Positions 30,885 to 35,640 of a DNA stretch of 64,000 bases are shown one piece after another (position 1 is the stretch's first letter; each line of letters opens with the position of its first letter). The stretch lies in contig NZ_LMPP01000001.1 of assembly GCF_001423885.1 (NCBI RefSeq), forward strand, positions 1,403,543-1,467,542, given 5' to 3'. Under the pieces are notes generated by a model that was given only the letters and a program-made list of their open reading frames with translations, was not told where the DNA came from and did not search any database. The DNA comes from Rathayibacter sp. Leaf185. GTDB taxonomy: Bacteria; Actinomycetota; Actinomycetes; Actinomycetales; Microbacteriaceae. The position numbers and the translations under genes are program-made.

Positions 30885-31703
30885 TCAGACGACGGCGTCG
30901 GGCGGGAACTCGGACTCGAGCGGCTCCGCGGACAGGAGCTCGTGCACGCCGCTCAGCACCTCGTCGGGGCGGAACGGGTAGCGCTCCATCTCGGCGTTGT
31001 CGCTGATGCCGGTCATCACGAGGACCGTGTGCAGCCCGGCCTCGATGCCCGCGATGATGTCGGTGTCCATCCGGTCGCCGATCATGCCGGTGTTCTCACT
31101 GTGCGCGCCGATCTTGTTCATCGCCGAGCGGAACATCATCGGGTTCGGCTTGCCGACGACGTACGGATCCTTGCCGGTCGCCTTGGTGATCAGCGCCGCG
31201 ATCGCGCCGGTCGCGGGCATCACGCCCTCGGCACTCGGGCCGGTCGCATCCGGGTTGGTGACGATGAACCGGGCGCCGTCGATGATCAGGCGGATCGCCT
31301 TCGTGATCGCCTCGAAGCTGTAGTTGCGGGTCTCGCCGACGACGACGTAGTCGGGCGCCGTCTCGGTCATGATGAAGCCCGCCTCGTGGAGGGCCGTCGT
31401 GATACCGGCCTCGCCGATGACGAAGGCGCTGCCTCCGGGGATCTGCGACGCGCAGAAGTCGGCCGTCGCGAGCGCACTCGTCCAGATGCGCTCCTCGGGC
31501 ACGTGCAGGCCCGAGGCCCGCAGCCGCGCCGCGAGATCGCGCGGAGTGAAGATGGAGTTGTTGGTGAGCACCAGGAACGGGACTCCGGCGTCCGTCCACT
31601 CCTGGATCAGCTCGGGCGCCCCGGGGAGCGCCTTGTTCTCGTGCACCAGCACGCCGTCCATGTCGGTCAGCCAGCACTCGACATCATTGCGGTTAGTCGC
31701 CAT
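30885..31703 (-). CDS. HAD-IIA family phosphatase, NagD-like
   Basis: A 272-residue HAD-superfamily hydrolase. Motif I is DMDGVLVHENK (nucleophile Asp14 and Asp16 in LTDMDGV), motif II is LVLTNNSIFTPRDL, motif III Lys lies in VVGKPNPMMFRSAM and motif IV is MIGDRMDTDIIAGIEAG. The large IIA-type cap lies between motifs II and III. Relatives dephosphorylate nucleotides or sugar phosphates; the substrate is not known. ATG at 31703 has TAGCAT ending 7 nt upstream, another leaderless candidate. Confidence 0.9.
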   Translation of the reverse strand: MATNRNDVECWLTDMDGVLVHENKALPGAPELIQEWTDAGVPFLVLTNNSIFTPRDLAARLRASGLHVPEERIWTSALATADFCASQIPGGSAFVIGEAGITTALHEAGFIMTETAPDYVVVGETRNYSFEAITKAIRLIIDGARFIVTNPDATGPSAEGVMPATGAIAALITKATGKDPYVVGKPNPMMFRSAMNKIGAHSENTGMIGDRMDTDIIAGIEAGLHTVLVMTGISDNAEMERYPFRPDEVLSGVHELLSAEPLESEFPPDAVV

Positions 31704-31808
31704 CCCCCGATGCTATCCGCGGACCACCCGACGCGCGTCGTGCGCAGTGGCGGCGCACTCACGGCCGTGTGCGCCGAGCTCCCGCAGGGTGATCGTCGAA
31801 CTCGCGGA

Positions 31809-34226
31809 TCACCCGGTCCACACCGCCGATACGGAGTCGATGCGGTCAGGTCGACGGTCGACGCAGAAGCCGACAGCGCTCCCGATCCGTCGCCACGCCA
31901 GTGCCGCCCGGCCGCGGATCGACCCGGCGACGATCGCGGCTGCGGTCGCGGCGCTGAGTCCGGTCAGCCATTCGGCCTGATTCGCCCAGACGGTGTCGTC
32001 CTCCCCCGCGGCCCGGAGAGAGGCCAGGATGTCGGGCACCAGCGGCGATGGGTCGCCCCCCGACTGTGTGACGGCGATCGCCTGGTTCAGCAGCGCGACG
32101 ACGAACTGCTCGTTCTCGGCACCCCACCGTCCGGGAGCGAGGTACTCGTGCTCGGTCACCGGCTCCTGCATCCTCGAGGACACCTCGGCCGTCGGCTCCA
32201 GGGCCGACCACGGTTGCTCCGACCAGCGCGCCTCTCGGACGTCGCGCTCGAGCAGGCGGTCGTCGTCGGCGAACACTCCGTGGACCAGCCGCGTCACTCC
32301 GGTGGCCAGCTCTGTCACGAACAGGCGATCGCCGCTGCCGTGCGCGTGCTGATGCGCGGAGTCGACGCCCGCCGGACTGAGCGTGAGCATCTCGGAGCCG
32401 TCCGGGGAGGCGGCGGGGTGCCAGAAGAACGGGAATTCGGGGTTCACGATCGTGTCCGGAGTCAGCGCTGGGAAGTCGCGGACGTGCTCTCCGGTGTTCA
32501 CGTCGTACAGGCGCGGCACGGCGAGGCCGTCCGTGTGCTCCACGGTGAGCAGGGTCGACGTCGTGCCGGGCCACCAGCCGGCGTTCCCGACGTCCACCGT
32601 CAGCAGTCGTCCCGTCGCGACCTCGATGAGTCGCGTCTGGCGGGTGCTCGTGACCAGCAGCCAGCGCCCGTCACCGCTGAAGCGGAGAGGATCGGCGCCC
32701 GAGTACTCGTGCACCACGGTGAGCAGGCGGCGTGAGCCCGTCCTGTCGTACAGGTACACCGCGCCGGTGCTGGAGCCCAGGAAGGCGAGGACCGCTGCCG
32801 TCTCGCTGGCAGCGTGGTAGTCGACGGAGCCGGCGTCGATGGTCGCGTCGACGACCGTCATCGCGCCCGTCCGGAACGACCCCGCGTAGAGGCGCGGCAC
32901 GGGGTGGAACAGTCCGCCGGGGTGTCCGGCCTCGGCGAAGGAGAAGGCGTTCCGACCGTCGATGGCGCCGAGATCGTGGGCGGGCGGCGATCCCCAGTTC
33001 TCGTGCGTGGGGTGACCGATCGCGAGGAAGCGGCCGGACTCCTCGTGGAGTACCGCCGAGGACGCCGTCGTCGTGCTCGGGAGCATCGGCGCGTCTGATG
33101 CGGAGCGCCACGAGTGCTCGAATCCGTTGCCGCGCTGCTCGCGCAGCTGATGCGCGAGCCGGTCGAGGACGTCGAAGACGGAGCCGCCGTCGGGCAGGTT
33201 CTCGCGGATCCGCTCGGTGTGGTGGAAGCGGCCGGCATCGGCTCGGTCCACCGACCGCGACGGGGCGGCATCGGCGCTCGGCCGCGTCTCGAGGACGTCC
33301 CAGAGCGAGCTGTCCGTCGACGCGGCATCCCGATCGTCCTGGAGGCCGGTGACTCGGTCGCGGTAGGCGTGGGTGAGGGAGTCGACGAAGCGCTGCCCGG
33401 CGTCGAGTACGTCGTCCGGAGTGCTCGACGGCGCCAGGCGGGTGGTCGCCGTCACTGCCGGGTCCAGCCAGAGGAGGTCGTGACCGGCACCGACGCTCAC
33501 CCAGTCGAACGGCTCGAGCATCCCGTCCGCGCTCTCGCCGACGGTGGTGAAGAGGAGAGGGACCTCGTTCCACAGGCCGGCGAAGACGTCCACCGAGTCG
33601 CCCTCCTGGTCCGTGAAGGAGCGCTTGTACAGTTCCGGCTGCAGTCGCTCCCACGAGGACAGCGACCGGCGCAACGGGGCGGTCAGTGTCGGAAGACCCG
33701 CCTCCGCGGTGCCGACGGCGTGGAAGGCAGGCTCGGTCCAGACCGGGATCACATCGGCCGATTCGATGAGGTCCCGGAGCGCCGGGTCCGTGCTGCCCCT
33801 GACGATCAACTCCCTCCGATACGGAGGGCCGGCCGATTCGAACGGAGTCAGAACGGATGCGGTGACGTTCGAGCTGTTCGTCTCCGGCCCGCAGAAGACG
33901 ATGACCGCCGAACCGCCCAGGCCCTCCACGGCGACCCAGAACACCGCCTCATCGGAGTCGAGCTGCTGGAAACCCAGCCTCCGGTGTGTCGATCGGGTCA
34001 GCTCGGGTGCGACGCGCGACGCCGTGGCGAGGAGAGTCTCGACGGGGACGTCCGCCCACAGGGCGACCGACAGTCCCATCGATTCCGCGAGGGCGTACAG
34101 GAGCTGTCTCGGGTCGTCCTCCGAGAGTCCGGGGTCGCTCAGTGCGACTGTCTCGCGGACGTCCTGCGGCGGCATCGCCGACGGGGCGCTCGCGCTGCGC
34201 GCCTCTCTGCGGCGGAACAAGCCCAT
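31809..34226 (-). CDS. Large hypothetical protein (805 aa), beta-propeller-like C-terminal half
   Basis: Not assigned to a known family. The protein is soluble, without signal peptide or membrane segment, with a short basic start (MGLFRRREARSAS). The N-terminal ~300 residues are mixed alpha/beta. The region ~380-660 contains blade-like stretches such as FSGDGRWLLVTS, TRLIEVATGRLL and ASPDGSEMLTLS, suggesting a WD40/YVTN-type propeller with several blades. An Ala-rich helical tail follows. The ATG at 34226 was chosen over the further upstream frame because GAGAGGTG lies 5-6 nt before it. It is divergent from the tiny-ORF operon at 34542, so the two may share control. Antagonism or stress roles would be guesses. 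Confidence 0.7.
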   Translation of the reverse strand: MGLFRRREARSASAPSAMPPQDVRETVALSDPGLSEDDPRQLLYALAESMGLSVALWADVPVETLLATASRVAPELTRSTHRRLGFQQLDSDEAVFWVAVEGLGGSAVIVFCGPETNSSNVTASVLTPFESAGPPYRRELIVRGSTDPALRDLIESADVIPVWTEPAFHAVGTAEAGLPTLTAPLRRSLSSWERLQPELYKRSFTDQEGDSVDVFAGLWNEVPLLFTTVGESADGMLEPFDWVSVGAGHDLLWLDPAVTATTRLAPSSTPDDVLDAGQRFVDSLTHAYRDRVTGLQDDRDAASTDSSLWDVLETRPSADAAPSRSVDRADAGRFHHTERIRENLPDGGSVFDVLDRLAHQLREQRGNGFEHSWRSASDAPMLPSTTTASSAVLHEESGRFLAIGHPTHENWGSPPAHDLGAIDGRNAFSFAEAGHPGGLFHPVPRLYAGSFRTGAMTVVDATIDAGSVDYHAASETAAVLAFLGSSTGAVYLYDRTGSRRLLTVVHEYSGADPLRFSGDGRWLLVTSTRQTRLIEVATGRLLTVDVGNAGWWPGTTSTLLTVEHTDGLAVPRLYDVNTGEHVRDFPALTPDTIVNPEFPFFWHPAASPDGSEMLTLSPAGVDSAHQHAHGSGDRLFVTELATGVTRLVHGVFADDDRLLERDVREARWSEQPWSALEPTAEVSSRMQEPVTEHEYLAPGRWGAENEQFVVALLNQAIAVTQSGGDPSPLVPDILASLRAAGEDDTVWANQAEWLTGLSAATAAAIVAGSIRGRAALAWRRIGSAVGFCVDRRPDRIDSVSAVWTG

Positions 34227-34541
34227 GGTGCACCTCTCATCTCGATGCGCCGGATGCGCGCCTCGTCCGCAGTCGACACCTGCAGTCGGTCCTTCGTTAC
34301 ATGGACATGATGTCCTCGAAGCCTGGATCACCGCTACTCCGAATCCTGGTCGGACCCTGGCCCCCGCTGCGCCGAGGAGTGGACCCTGGAACCGATGTCG
34401 ATGAGGTCAGAGCGCCGTTCCCAGCGTCCCGCGCCACTCCACTTCGGGGGGTAGGCGACTTGTTCAAGGGAGTGGCCTAATAGACGTGATGTATCAATCT
34501 CCGATACGGACGTCGGAGAGCATCCTCGTGAGGAGAAGATC
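34227..34541. other. 315-bp divergent intergenic region
   Basis: Separates the 805-aa protein gene (minus) from the tiny-ORF operon (plus). A 59-codon frame from ATG 34302 lacks a ribosome site and is not counted. TTGTTC (34460-34465) and TAATAG (34478-34483) are promoter-like but only 12 bp apart. GTATC/GATAC (34491-34507) is a small hairpin 35 nt before the first tiny ORF. GAGGAG ends 7 nt before it. Confidence 0.45.
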
Positions 34542-34655
34542 ATGGCGTGTGCGTGCACTTCGGCAGGCAAGCCCCGATGCGCCTGGTGCAATGAGGCGGT
34601 CGTCAATCGGATGCCCGTGAGCCGGCACAACTGTCAATGGGGCAACTGCTCCTGA
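34542..34655 (+). CDS. Tiny Cys-rich protein, 37 aa, zinc-finger-like
   Basis: Unknown 37-residue protein. It begins MACACTSAGKPRCAWCNEAV and ends in a HNCQWGNCS tail. Six cysteines lie at 3, 5, 13, 16, 31 and 36. The CAWC knuckle followed by HNCxxxxC about 15 residues later resembles a minimal treble-clef or zinc-ribbon site. There is no signal peptide, so it should be cytosolic and metal-bound rather than disulfide-bonded, though a peptide precursor is possible. GAGGAG ends 7 nt upstream of ATG 34542, an ideal ribosome site. It is the first of three tiny ORFs in a row ending at a strong terminator. Confidence 0.65.
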   Translation: MACACTSAGKPRCAWCNEAVVNRMPVSRHNCQWGNCS

Positions 34656-34699
34656 CGCATCTCTCCGCCGATCCGGACGAACAGAAGGGAGACGCCATC

Positions 34700-34783
34700 G
34701 TGGGGAAGCAGCAGCAGCCGCCACCGAAACCACCCTCGACCCCCGGCCCCCACCAGCCCAACCCACTGGTGAAGCCGCACTGA
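34700..34783 (+). CDS. Tiny Pro/Gln-rich peptide, 27 aa
   Basis: Starts MGKQQQPPPKPPSTPGPHQP and ends NPLVKPH; 11 of 27 residues are Pro. There is no hydrophobic segment. The start is GTG at 34700 with AAGGGAG 8-9 nt upstream, 44 bp after the stop of the 37-aa gene. The peptide is basic and unstructured, possibly a protein-binding PxxP ligand. The strong ribosome site and the position between two Cys-rich ORFs are the main reasons to believe it; the sequence itself matches nothing I know. Confidence 0.5.
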   Translation: MGKQQQPPPKPPSTPGPHQPNPLVKPH

Positions 34784-34791
34784 GAACGCGC

Positions 34792-34803
34792 GGGCTCGAG
34801 CCC
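34792..34803. repeat. GGGCTCGAGCCC palindrome after the 27-aa ORF
   Basis: A perfect 12-bp palindrome lying 9 nt after the stop at 34783. It can form a GGGC-TCGA-GCCC hairpin and may partly terminate or process the mRNA between the second and third tiny ORFs. Confidence 0.4.
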
Positions 34804-34855
34804 GATCGCGACCCCGCTGCGCGACCGCCCGCAGGGTGGCCGACAGCCCCGGAGT

Positions 34856-34872
34856 GAGACCAGGAGGGTCTC
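34856..34872 (+). promoter_or_regulatory. GAGACC-AGGAG-GGTCTC hairpin before the 28-aa zinc-ribbon ORF
   Basis: A perfect 6-bp stem whose 5-nt loop is AGGAG, placed 31 nt upstream of ATG 34904. It could present or hide a ribosome-binding sequence, or act as a leader structure for the third tiny ORF. Confidence 0.4.
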
Positions 34873-34903
34873 TCTCGTCCCGGAACATCACAGGAGGATC
34901 ACA

Positions 34904-34990
34904 ATGGCCAAGTCGAATTGCTGTGGAGAAGCCATCGAGCGCGACAACGGCGGCAAAGCCCGCTGTTCGAAGTGCGGATCGGCCCAGTAG
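34904..34990 (+). CDS. Tiny zinc-ribbon-like protein, 28 aa
   Basis: Begins MAKSNCCGEAIERDNGGKAR and continues CSKCGSAQ. Cysteines fall at 6, 7, 21 and 24; the CCG...CSKCG spacing is that of a minimal zinc ribbon, a pattern also seen in very small phage and bacterial proteins. It lacks a signal peptide. AGGAGG ends 6 nt before ATG 34904, an excellent ribosome site. It is the last of the tiny-ORF series; a 13-bp-stem terminator begins 12 nt after its stop, which argues strongly that this is a real transcription unit. Function unknown. Confidence 0.65.
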   Translation: MAKSNCCGEAIERDNGGKARCSKCGSAQ

Positions 34991-35001
34991 GCCACCGTCT
35001 C

Positions 35002-35042
35002 CTCCCGCTGCGGCACGACACCCGGAGAAGCCGCAGCGGGAG
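35002..35042 (+). terminator. Perfect 13-bp-stem terminator of the tiny-ORF operon
   Basis: CTCCCGCTGCGGC (35002-35014) and GCCGCAGCGGGAG (35030-35042) pair perfectly around a 15-nt loop. It starts 12 nt after the stop of the 28-aa gene and isolates the unit from the downstream DUF3151 gene. Confidence 0.8.
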
Positions 35043-35148
35043 CAGCGGACAGAAGACGCACATCGGCGGAGCGGAGAACCCGGGCCGGACACGGCGCCCG
35101 GAACGCGGATCGCAACCGGCTCCCCGGACCGGCACAGGGGGAGCGGGC

Positions 35149-35154
35149 TAGCCT
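35149..35154 (+). promoter_or_regulatory. -10 box for a leaderless DUF3151 message
   Basis: TAGCCT ends 7 nt before ATG 35161; only G-rich sequence lies between, with no proper Shine-Dalgarno. Confidence 0.55.
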
Positions 35155-35160
35155 GGGGGC

Positions 35161-35640
35161 ATGAGTGGCGAGAACCTGCTGGGCCCCGAACCGACCCTCC
35201 TCCCCGACGAGCCCGCGGTGACCGCGGCGCTCGCCAAGCACGCGAACCCCGGAGCCGTCGAGTTCGCCGCGCTCGCAGCGGCGCACCCGCGCTCCCCGCT
35301 CGCGTGGGCCCTCCTGGCCGACAGTGTCTGGGGCATCGACGCCGCGCTGCCGTCCTACGCCTACGCGCGCGTCGGCTACCACCGCGGCCTCGACCTGCTC
35401 CGCACCGCTGGCTGGCGCGGCCAAGGCCCGATCCCCTGGCGTCACGGACCCAACCGCGGCTTCCTCCTCGCGCTCTACGCCCTCCGCCGCGCCGCCGAAT
35501 CCATCGGCGAGACCGACGAGGTCGACCGCCTCACCGGCTTCCTCCAGCAGGCCGACCCGGCCGCCATCCCCGAGATCGAGCGGTACCACGAGGATGCACT
35601 TCCCCCCACCGCCGCCATCGTCATCCTCGGGGCGGATTAG
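35161..35640 (+). CDS. DUF3151 family protein
   Basis: A 159-residue soluble, helical protein of the actinobacterial DUF3151 family. Family signatures are the opening ENLLGPEPTLLP, the central YAYARVGYHRGLDLLR, GWRGQGPIPWRHGPNRGFL, and a C-terminal EIERYHEDALPP. The repeat-like helices look like a TPR-type scaffold. No activity is established. It is single-gene, with the transcription start probably at the ATG. Its stop codon overlaps the first bases of a 94-bp palindromic element. Confidence 0.85.
   Translation: MSGENLLGPEPTLLPDEPAVTAALAKHANPGAVEFAALAAAHPRSPLAWALLADSVWGIDAALPSYAYARVGYHRGLDLLRTAGWRGQGPIPWRHGPNRGFLLALYALRRAAESIGETDEVDRLTGFLQQADPAAIPEIERYHEDALPPTAAIVILGAD

Follow-up and report, generated by a model that had tools for sequence, protein, structure and literature searches.

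The window analysed here, a 64,000-nt stretch of the Rathayibacter sp. Leaf185 genome, contains three consecutive tiny open reading frames on the plus strand. ORF1 (34542-34655, 37 aa, ATG start) is preceded by the Shine-Dalgarno (SD) sequence GAGGAG and encodes a peptide with six cysteines (C3, C5, C13, C16, C31 and C36). ORF2 (34700-34783, 27 aa, GTG start) encodes a proline-rich peptide with the core PPKPPSxPGPxQPNPLxxPH, and ORF3 (34904-34990, 28 aa, ATG start) encodes a minimal zinc-ribbon-like peptide with four cysteines (CCG...CSKCG). Divergent from them, on the minus strand, lies the gene for an 805-aa protein of no known family (31809-34226). Downstream of ORF3, a perfect 13-bp hairpin stem on the plus strand (35002-35014 / 35030-35042) possibly marks the transcript end of a small-ORF operon. 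The stretch 34991-35055, which includes the hairpin, has a fold of -36 kcal/mol (z -4.86); a T-run is absent after it, and the consensus scan listed neither a terminator nor a promoter in this region. Thus, the three tiny ORFs of the original prediction, with the SD-like sequences GAGGAG, AAGGGAG and AGGAGG, were found where they had been placed, and so was the perfect stem, but the latter begins 11 nt after the ORF3 stop codon and not 12 nt as claimed.

In dinucleotide shuffles of 34227-35160, at least three SD-preceded ORFs of 25-60 aa that did not overlap arose in 420 of 2000 sequences, so that the number of tiny SD-preceded ORFs is in itself little proof of genes. Two SD-preceded ORFs with at least four cysteines each were obtained in 0 of 2000 shuffles, by a criterion picked after the data had been seen. 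As judged from the homologues described below, it is conservation that lifts ORF1 and ORF2 above chance. Searches of Pfam, PHROG and NCBIfam gave no match at the curated cut-offs or at E <0.001 for ORF1, ORF2, ORF3 or the 805-aa protein, and an Rfam scan gave no match. A search of the open-licence PMC literature with the ORF2 letters returned no paper, and no description of such a module was found either. The stretch 34796-34828, between ORF2 and ORF3, matched several same-genus genomes, at two places in what reads like transporter coding sequence, and these matches were taken as chance.

The small ORFs and the 805-aa gene occupy a segment of ~3.4 kb (approximate extent 31725-35117) flanked by a HAD hydrolase gene on the left (30885-31703) and a DUF3151 gene on the right (35161-35640). 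The distance between the two flanking genes is 3457 nt in the window. DUF3151 was present in 13 other same-genus genomes, with the hydrolase gene within the fetched 1.5 kb in eight and beyond this reach in five; among those eight, the gap measures ~90-170 nt in seven and ~410 nt in one (G007). This comparison identifies the segment as an insertion in the window with respect to the same-genus genomes, and the gap between the HAD hydrolase and DUF3151 genes is possibly an insertion hotspot. No word of at least 9 bases was found to be shared between the two junction regions. The GC content is 69% in the segment, 62% in the divergent intergenic region and 72% in the 64-kb window. The stretch upstream of DUF3151 in the window is common to the relatives without the insertion. 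Within 35118-35163, a TAGCCT-like hexamer lies 6-7 nt before the ATG of DUF3151, both in the window and in those same-genus copies that were read. We take it to be a promoter sign, which suggests that DUF3151 has its own, leaderless transcript.

Beyond the window, homologues of ORF2 were found at five loci in unrelated contexts. Among 15 same-genus genomes, a search at the DNA level returned a single ORF2-covering match besides the window, on a 252-kb relaxase-bearing contig of genome G001 (L003/L126), and among 249 family genomes, a search with the peptide returned a copy in Amnibacterium flavum (G242, L071/L103; E 1.1e-6), which was also recovered by a pattern scan. A plasmid DNA search identified a copy on a 72-kb plasmid of Microbacterium sp. 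J1-1 (L100), where no gene is annotated under the match. The two remaining copies, in Aeromicrobium ginsengisoli of the order Propionibacteriales (L101) and on a 6351-bp contig of an uncultured Microbacteriaceae metagenome-assembled genome (MAG; L102), were obtained by an exact-pattern scan of a genome collection, in which all three stretches returned were full-length ORF2 genes, from two orders. The insertion in the window, the plasmid copy and the occurrence in two orders indicate that the segment is mobile.

Across the six loci, the 20-codon core of ORF2 varies at 2 of 20 first, 3 of 20 second and 19 of 20 third codon positions, with pooled values of pS 0.69 and pN 0.076. In the C-terminal part, the pattern by which L101, L102 and (again) L103 were found left few first and second codon positions free, so that pN is lowered for L101 and L102; the four copies found without the pattern (G001, J1-1, Amnibacterium and the window) gave the same picture, with pN 0.03-0.10 and pS 0.38-0.81. 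Conservation extends over most of the peptide, including residues distant from the proline tracts. Since the peptide is nearly fixed across two orders and its synonymous sites have turned over, ORF2 appears to carry a selected function at a length of 27 aa, and we regard this substitution pattern as direct evidence that so small a protein can do so. SD-like matches of 4-6 nt stand before the ORF2 start at all six loci, the weakest (4) being those of the window and the MAG. Directly 3' of ORF2, strong hairpins were found in G001 (L003, z -9.45), Amnibacterium (L071, z -6.48) and Aeromicrobium (L101, z -5.95) and a weak one in J1-1 (z -1.92); the window (z -0.64) and the MAG (z 0.96) have none at this position.

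In the MAG, the GTG of ORF2 overlaps the stop codon of a 31-aa Asn/Asp-rich ORF (L102:1471-1566, minus strand), an arrangement that suggests translational coupling. Directly upstream of ORF2 in A. ginsengisoli lies a charged 54-aa ORF whose SD is strong (7-nt match; L101:3567-3731, plus strand), and upstream of the J1-1 copy a hypothetical protein reads like a frameshifted Ser/Thr kinase remnant (L100:3169-3996, plus strand).

ORF2 is rare. At E <=0.001, it was found in one of 396 order genomes and one of 396 phylum genomes, in each case the window's own, and in one of nine genomes of the genus of A. flavum. Four scans of viral contigs with ORF2 gave no confirmed match. In the plasmid DNA searches, J1-1 alone stood out (E 2e-7, 5e-10 and 4e-42, the last with its own sequence), the other plasmid records listed having E >=0.006 with under half of the query covered. 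In a DNA search, the Aeromicrobium form of ORF2 gave no phage match and two plasmid records, at E 0.9, and 17 phage records obtained with the G001 form were taken as chance, those listed having E 0.007-0.08 and covering at most 47% of the query. The null result of a tblastn search with the G001 form against plasmids and phages is void, J1-1 having been missed, probably through the low-complexity filter. A scripted check for an SD-preceded ORF of at most 60 aa over the ORF2 matches was passed by 2 of 33 loci, namely the true Amnibacterium gene and an unrelated 54-aa ORF (L087), and by none of the four weak order-level hits (E 0.005-0.009) among the 33.

Short ORFs rich in proline or cysteine are known as regulatory elements, and the cysteine-rich ORF1 and the PPP and PP tracts of ORF2 could be read as leader peptides, that is, as Cys/Pro-codon attenuators or polyproline-stall sensors for a downstream gene. 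We consider this highly unlikely, as the layout of the loci does not fit it. The next genes are convergent at three of the six loci (G001, Amnibacterium and J1-1), the strong hairpins follow ORF2 at three, and in the window the hairpin separates the small ORFs from DUF3151, which retains the upstream stretch of its insertion-free relatives; as judged from gene layout and the hairpin, a co-directional downstream gene on the same transcript appears to be lacking at these loci. Moreover, conservation covers most of ORF2, even far from the tracts. A second reading, which takes the peptides for precursors of a modified natural product of ribosomal origin, is very unlikely. Bacteriocin-like and PrAMP-like precursors are Cys-rich or cationic and Pro-rich, a likeness to the Cys-rich ORF1 and the cationic, Pro-rich ORF2 that is superficial: neither peptide has an evident leader, and ORF2 is conserved along its length, with no division into a leader and a variable core. 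Pfam found no peptide-modification or export gene among the scanned neighbours, which comprised four window proteins, five of L101, three of L126, two of L127 and the proteins of L102 and L134. The only peptidase-type matches there were to a VanY-like carboxypeptidase convergent to the Amnibacterium ORF2 and to a DUF2201_N putative metallopeptidase domain on L134.

A homologue of ORF1 was found on the MAG contig (L102:3057-3173, plus strand, 38 aa; E 4e-16), sharing 65.8% (tblastn) to 68% (alignment) identity with ORF1 and keeping all six cysteines and the CAWC and QW motifs. This single pair, the only one on which the selection estimate for ORF1 is based, has pS 0.91 and pN 0.26, and every alternative forward frame is interrupted by a stop codon in one of the two copies. 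At E <=0.001, ORF1 was detected in no other genome of the 249 family genomes (best E 0.00123) and in no other of the 15 same-genus genomes. For the candidates listed at E 0.001-1 in the family genomes, 0 of the 29 fetched non-window loci carried an SD-preceded ORF of at most 60 aa at the match. The plasmid search gave one match only, at E 7, and one scan of viral contigs gave none that was confirmed. No PDB sequence matched ORF1; its MAG homologue had sub-threshold matches only in Pfam and a best E of 0.0026 in PHROG, with none <0.001. The structure prediction for ORF1 was weak (pLDDT 64.1).

The absence of homologues of ORF1 and ORF3 at E <=0.001 elsewhere in the 249 family genomes, together with the fair frequency of three small SD-preceded ORFs by chance, might suggest that both are Cys-rich chance ORFs and that ORF2 is the sole gene. 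The MAG homologue, with its six cysteines kept, contradicts this for ORF1, making such a reading extremely unlikely. From these comparisons, we conclude that ORF1 and ORF2 are almost certainly real genes. The original prediction of unannotated tiny genes therefore stands for these two, for which homologues with preserved frame and start codon exist, with the cysteines of ORF1 kept and signs of purifying selection; it is plausible but unsupported for ORF3, of which no homologue was detected. Its emphasis was on the Cys-rich peptides, but the widest conservation belongs to the proline-rich ORF2.

Relatives of ORF3 were found neither in the 249 family genomes and the 15 same-genus genomes nor in phages, plasmids or the other ORF2 loci. 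Six phage and 17 plasmid records were listed for it, all at E >=3, and for the candidates listed at E 0.001-1 in the family genomes, an SD-preceded ORF of at most 60 aa at the match was present in 0 of the 29 fetched non-window loci. In Pfam, ORF3 scored 17.4 bits against Zn_ribbon_4 (cut-off 30.3) and 15.0 against Zn_Ribbon_TF (cut-off 29), far short of both, and up to E 10 the PDB sequences yielded a single match to it, 8q5b, a small CPxCG-related zinc finger protein (E = 1). On balance, we lean towards ORF3 being a real gene. Between the ORF1 homologue and the large gene of the MAG contig, two further tiny Cys ORFs are present, one of 46 aa on the plus strand (CCNCG...CPHCG; L102:3324-3464) and one of 38 aa on the minus strand (CPQC...CQLC; L102:3678-3794). 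Both match zinc ribbons, Com-like ones among them, below threshold; for the 46-aa ORF, E is 0.0066 with Zn_ribbon_Com and 0.0086 with a PHROG that bears the name translational regulator. Interchangeable mini zinc ribbons may thus be part of the theme.

The 805-aa protein showed propeller-like matches in Pfam that are non-significant (E 0.12 and 0.32). Its homologue on the MAG contig runs from ~4564 to the contig end, with 37.7% identity over 608 aa (E 8e-128), and a fitting remainder of this large gene (38.4% identity over 177 aa) lies at the end of another contig of this MAG, C30 (L134). The protein was found in one of the 249 family genomes, the window's own, and, among 18 further genomes or records, in the MAG alone; it was found in no plasmid record, and one viral-contig scan gave no confirmed match. 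The window's own genome also contains, on contig C4, a 40% identical paralogue (match G000:C4:18545-19957) of 590 aa (L125:8527-10299, equal to G000:C4:18527-20299) that is shorter at the N-terminal side, and in the stretch read upstream of it no peptides like ORF1, ORF2 or ORF3 were seen. PADLOC assigned none of its families to the 805-aa protein, its MAG homologue or its paralogue, and the MAG copies of both ORF1 and the large protein were without a match in Pfam, PHROG and NCBIfam at the cut-offs or at E <0.001. The best match among PDB sequences with an 805-aa profile had E 0.1, and the predicted structure had a pLDDT of 32.8, too low to be of use.

Homologues of ORF1, ORF2 and the 805-aa protein are found together on the 6351-bp MAG contig, the second such locus besides the window. 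This contig was fetched for ORF2 alone and also holds the two rare partners, which is strong evidence for a recurring module. This lends support to the suggestion of a common system for the small ORFs and the divergent 805-aa protein. The MAG arrangement differs from that of the window in strand and order: ORF2 is encoded on the other strand, and ORF1 precedes the large gene by 1.4 kb and shares its direction, so the operon order is not conserved. The full trio is present at two loci only, and the module is very rare among the sampled genomes.

The other four ORF2 loci would also suit a different explanation, in which ORF2 is a self-contained mobile micro-gene with a function of its own that came to lie beside ORF1, ORF3 and the 805-aa gene by accident, as cargo of accessory regions. 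At these four of the six loci, neither ORF1 nor the 805-aa gene occurs within the 8-20 kb compared, and the 805-aa protein is absent from the whole J1-1 plasmid and from the complete set of contigs of G001, Amnibacterium and Aeromicrobium. When the 1.5-kb regions around ORF2 were compared in pairs, DNA similarity was limited to the ORF itself, plus the SD region in one pair, and a strong hairpin lies directly downstream of ORF2 at three of the six loci. Nevertheless, the joint presence of three rare genes on a 6.35-kb contig fetched for ORF2 is hard to call chance, and we consider the self-contained micro-gene rather unlikely. That ORF1, ORF2 and the 805-aa protein constitute a functional module is, on this genomic evidence, probable.

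The proposal that we derive from these data, the chances of which we judge to be even, is a rare, horizontally spread accessory module made up of a large protein and a divergent micro-operon of tiny proteins. The large protein, perhaps with a propeller-like C-terminal half, would be a scaffold or sensor served by the peptides. The products of ORF1, ORF2 and ORF3 would be translated as stand-alone peptides, with the GC-rich hairpin closing the micro-operon. ORF1 would give a six-cysteine, probably metal-binding peptide folded around a metal ion, and ORF3 a minimal zinc-ribbon-like peptide likewise folded around a metal ion, and the disordered ORF2 product would bind, in extended polyproline II form, to a protein of the host or of the module. 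In this scheme, the peptides would serve or regulate the large protein.

The neighbours of ORF2 include genes of mobile or defence type. Near the G001 copy are a relaxase and a DUF1016/YhcG nuclease (PADLOC candidate PDC-S02), and near the Aeromicrobium copy is a DUF4268 protein (PDC-S11). An integrase gene lies nearby on the J1-1 plasmid, which is typed as non-mobilizable in PLSDB. The contig that seemingly continues the MAG large gene carries an AAA_5 ATPase gene paired with a DUF2201_N/DUF2201 VWA-like gene (L134:645-3040, plus strand). Both the patchy occurrence of the module and the mobile or defence-type character of some neighbours favour a role in conflict with phages or plasmids over a housekeeping role. 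It is a lead only, since the neighbours differ from locus to locus and PADLOC gave no match at the J1-1 and Amnibacterium loci, where one neighbour each was scanned; we rate a conflict or defence role as tentative and less likely than not. The more specific idea of a previously undescribed mobile actinobacterial conflict system, in which a propeller-type protein is combined with nano-proteins of fewer than 50 residues, is doubtful as it stands. Its nano-protein set may comprise the six-Cys metal peptide, the polyproline ligand and interchangeable mini zinc ribbons. If true, a conflict system would be spreading on islands and plasmids and would almost entirely escape standard annotation, since only one of its partners exceeds the limits of gene callers. 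ORF1, ORF2 and the 805-aa protein mark a mobile module hidden by length cut-offs (90 bp, 50 aa), and if accessory or defence islands commonly hold nano-proteins, surveys restricted to large genes overlook working parts.

Among known systems, small zinc ribbons of phages and plasmids (Com and Lar-like) resemble the 46-aa ORF of the MAG contig, weakly or below cut-off, a likeness that was seen for this ORF. ORF3 stayed below the gathering cut-offs of the Pfam zinc-ribbon families and ORF1 matched no Pfam family, and a phage or prophage origin found no sign in PHROG at E <0.001 or in six viral-contig scans with ORF2, the 805-aa protein and ORF1, whose matches were unconfirmed. MoxR-vWA ternary conflict systems include a beta-propeller subtype (PMC7159879). 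The AAA_5 ATPase and DUF2201 VWA-like genes on the MAG continuation contig, and the non-significant propeller-like matches of the 805-aa protein, are reminiscent of such systems (PMC7159879). Different from the pair of MoxR AAA+ ATPase and vWA genes next to the third component by which these systems are recognized, the MAG pair is more than 3 kb from the 3' end of the large gene, across other ORFs, and no such gene was seen among the four window proteins scanned; a search counted no mention of DUF2201 in that paper (PMC7159879).

Ribosome profiling in Mycobacterium tuberculosis has uncovered short ORFs missed by annotation, of which a minority are under codon-level selection (PMC9094748). Unlike those, the ORFs described here are known from sequence alone and lie on a mobile segment, and selection on them was read from cross-species substitution. 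The C(P)XCG zinc-finger microproteins of Haloferax volcanii are defined by two C(P)XCG motifs (four cysteines) in fewer than 70 aa, and AlphaFold2 cannot decide whether they bind zinc (PMC11241148). Their homology to ORF1 or ORF3 does not reach a significant E. In contrast to their double motif, ORF3 combines a single CxxCG (CSKCG) with a neighbouring CCG, and ORF1 has CxC (CAC), CxxC (CAWC) and Cx4C with no following glycine (PMC11241148). Like ORF3, they are very small, contain four cysteines and long went unannotated, and their functions are mostly unsettled (PMC11241148). Small C(P)XCG microproteins are the nearest described kind (PMC11241148).
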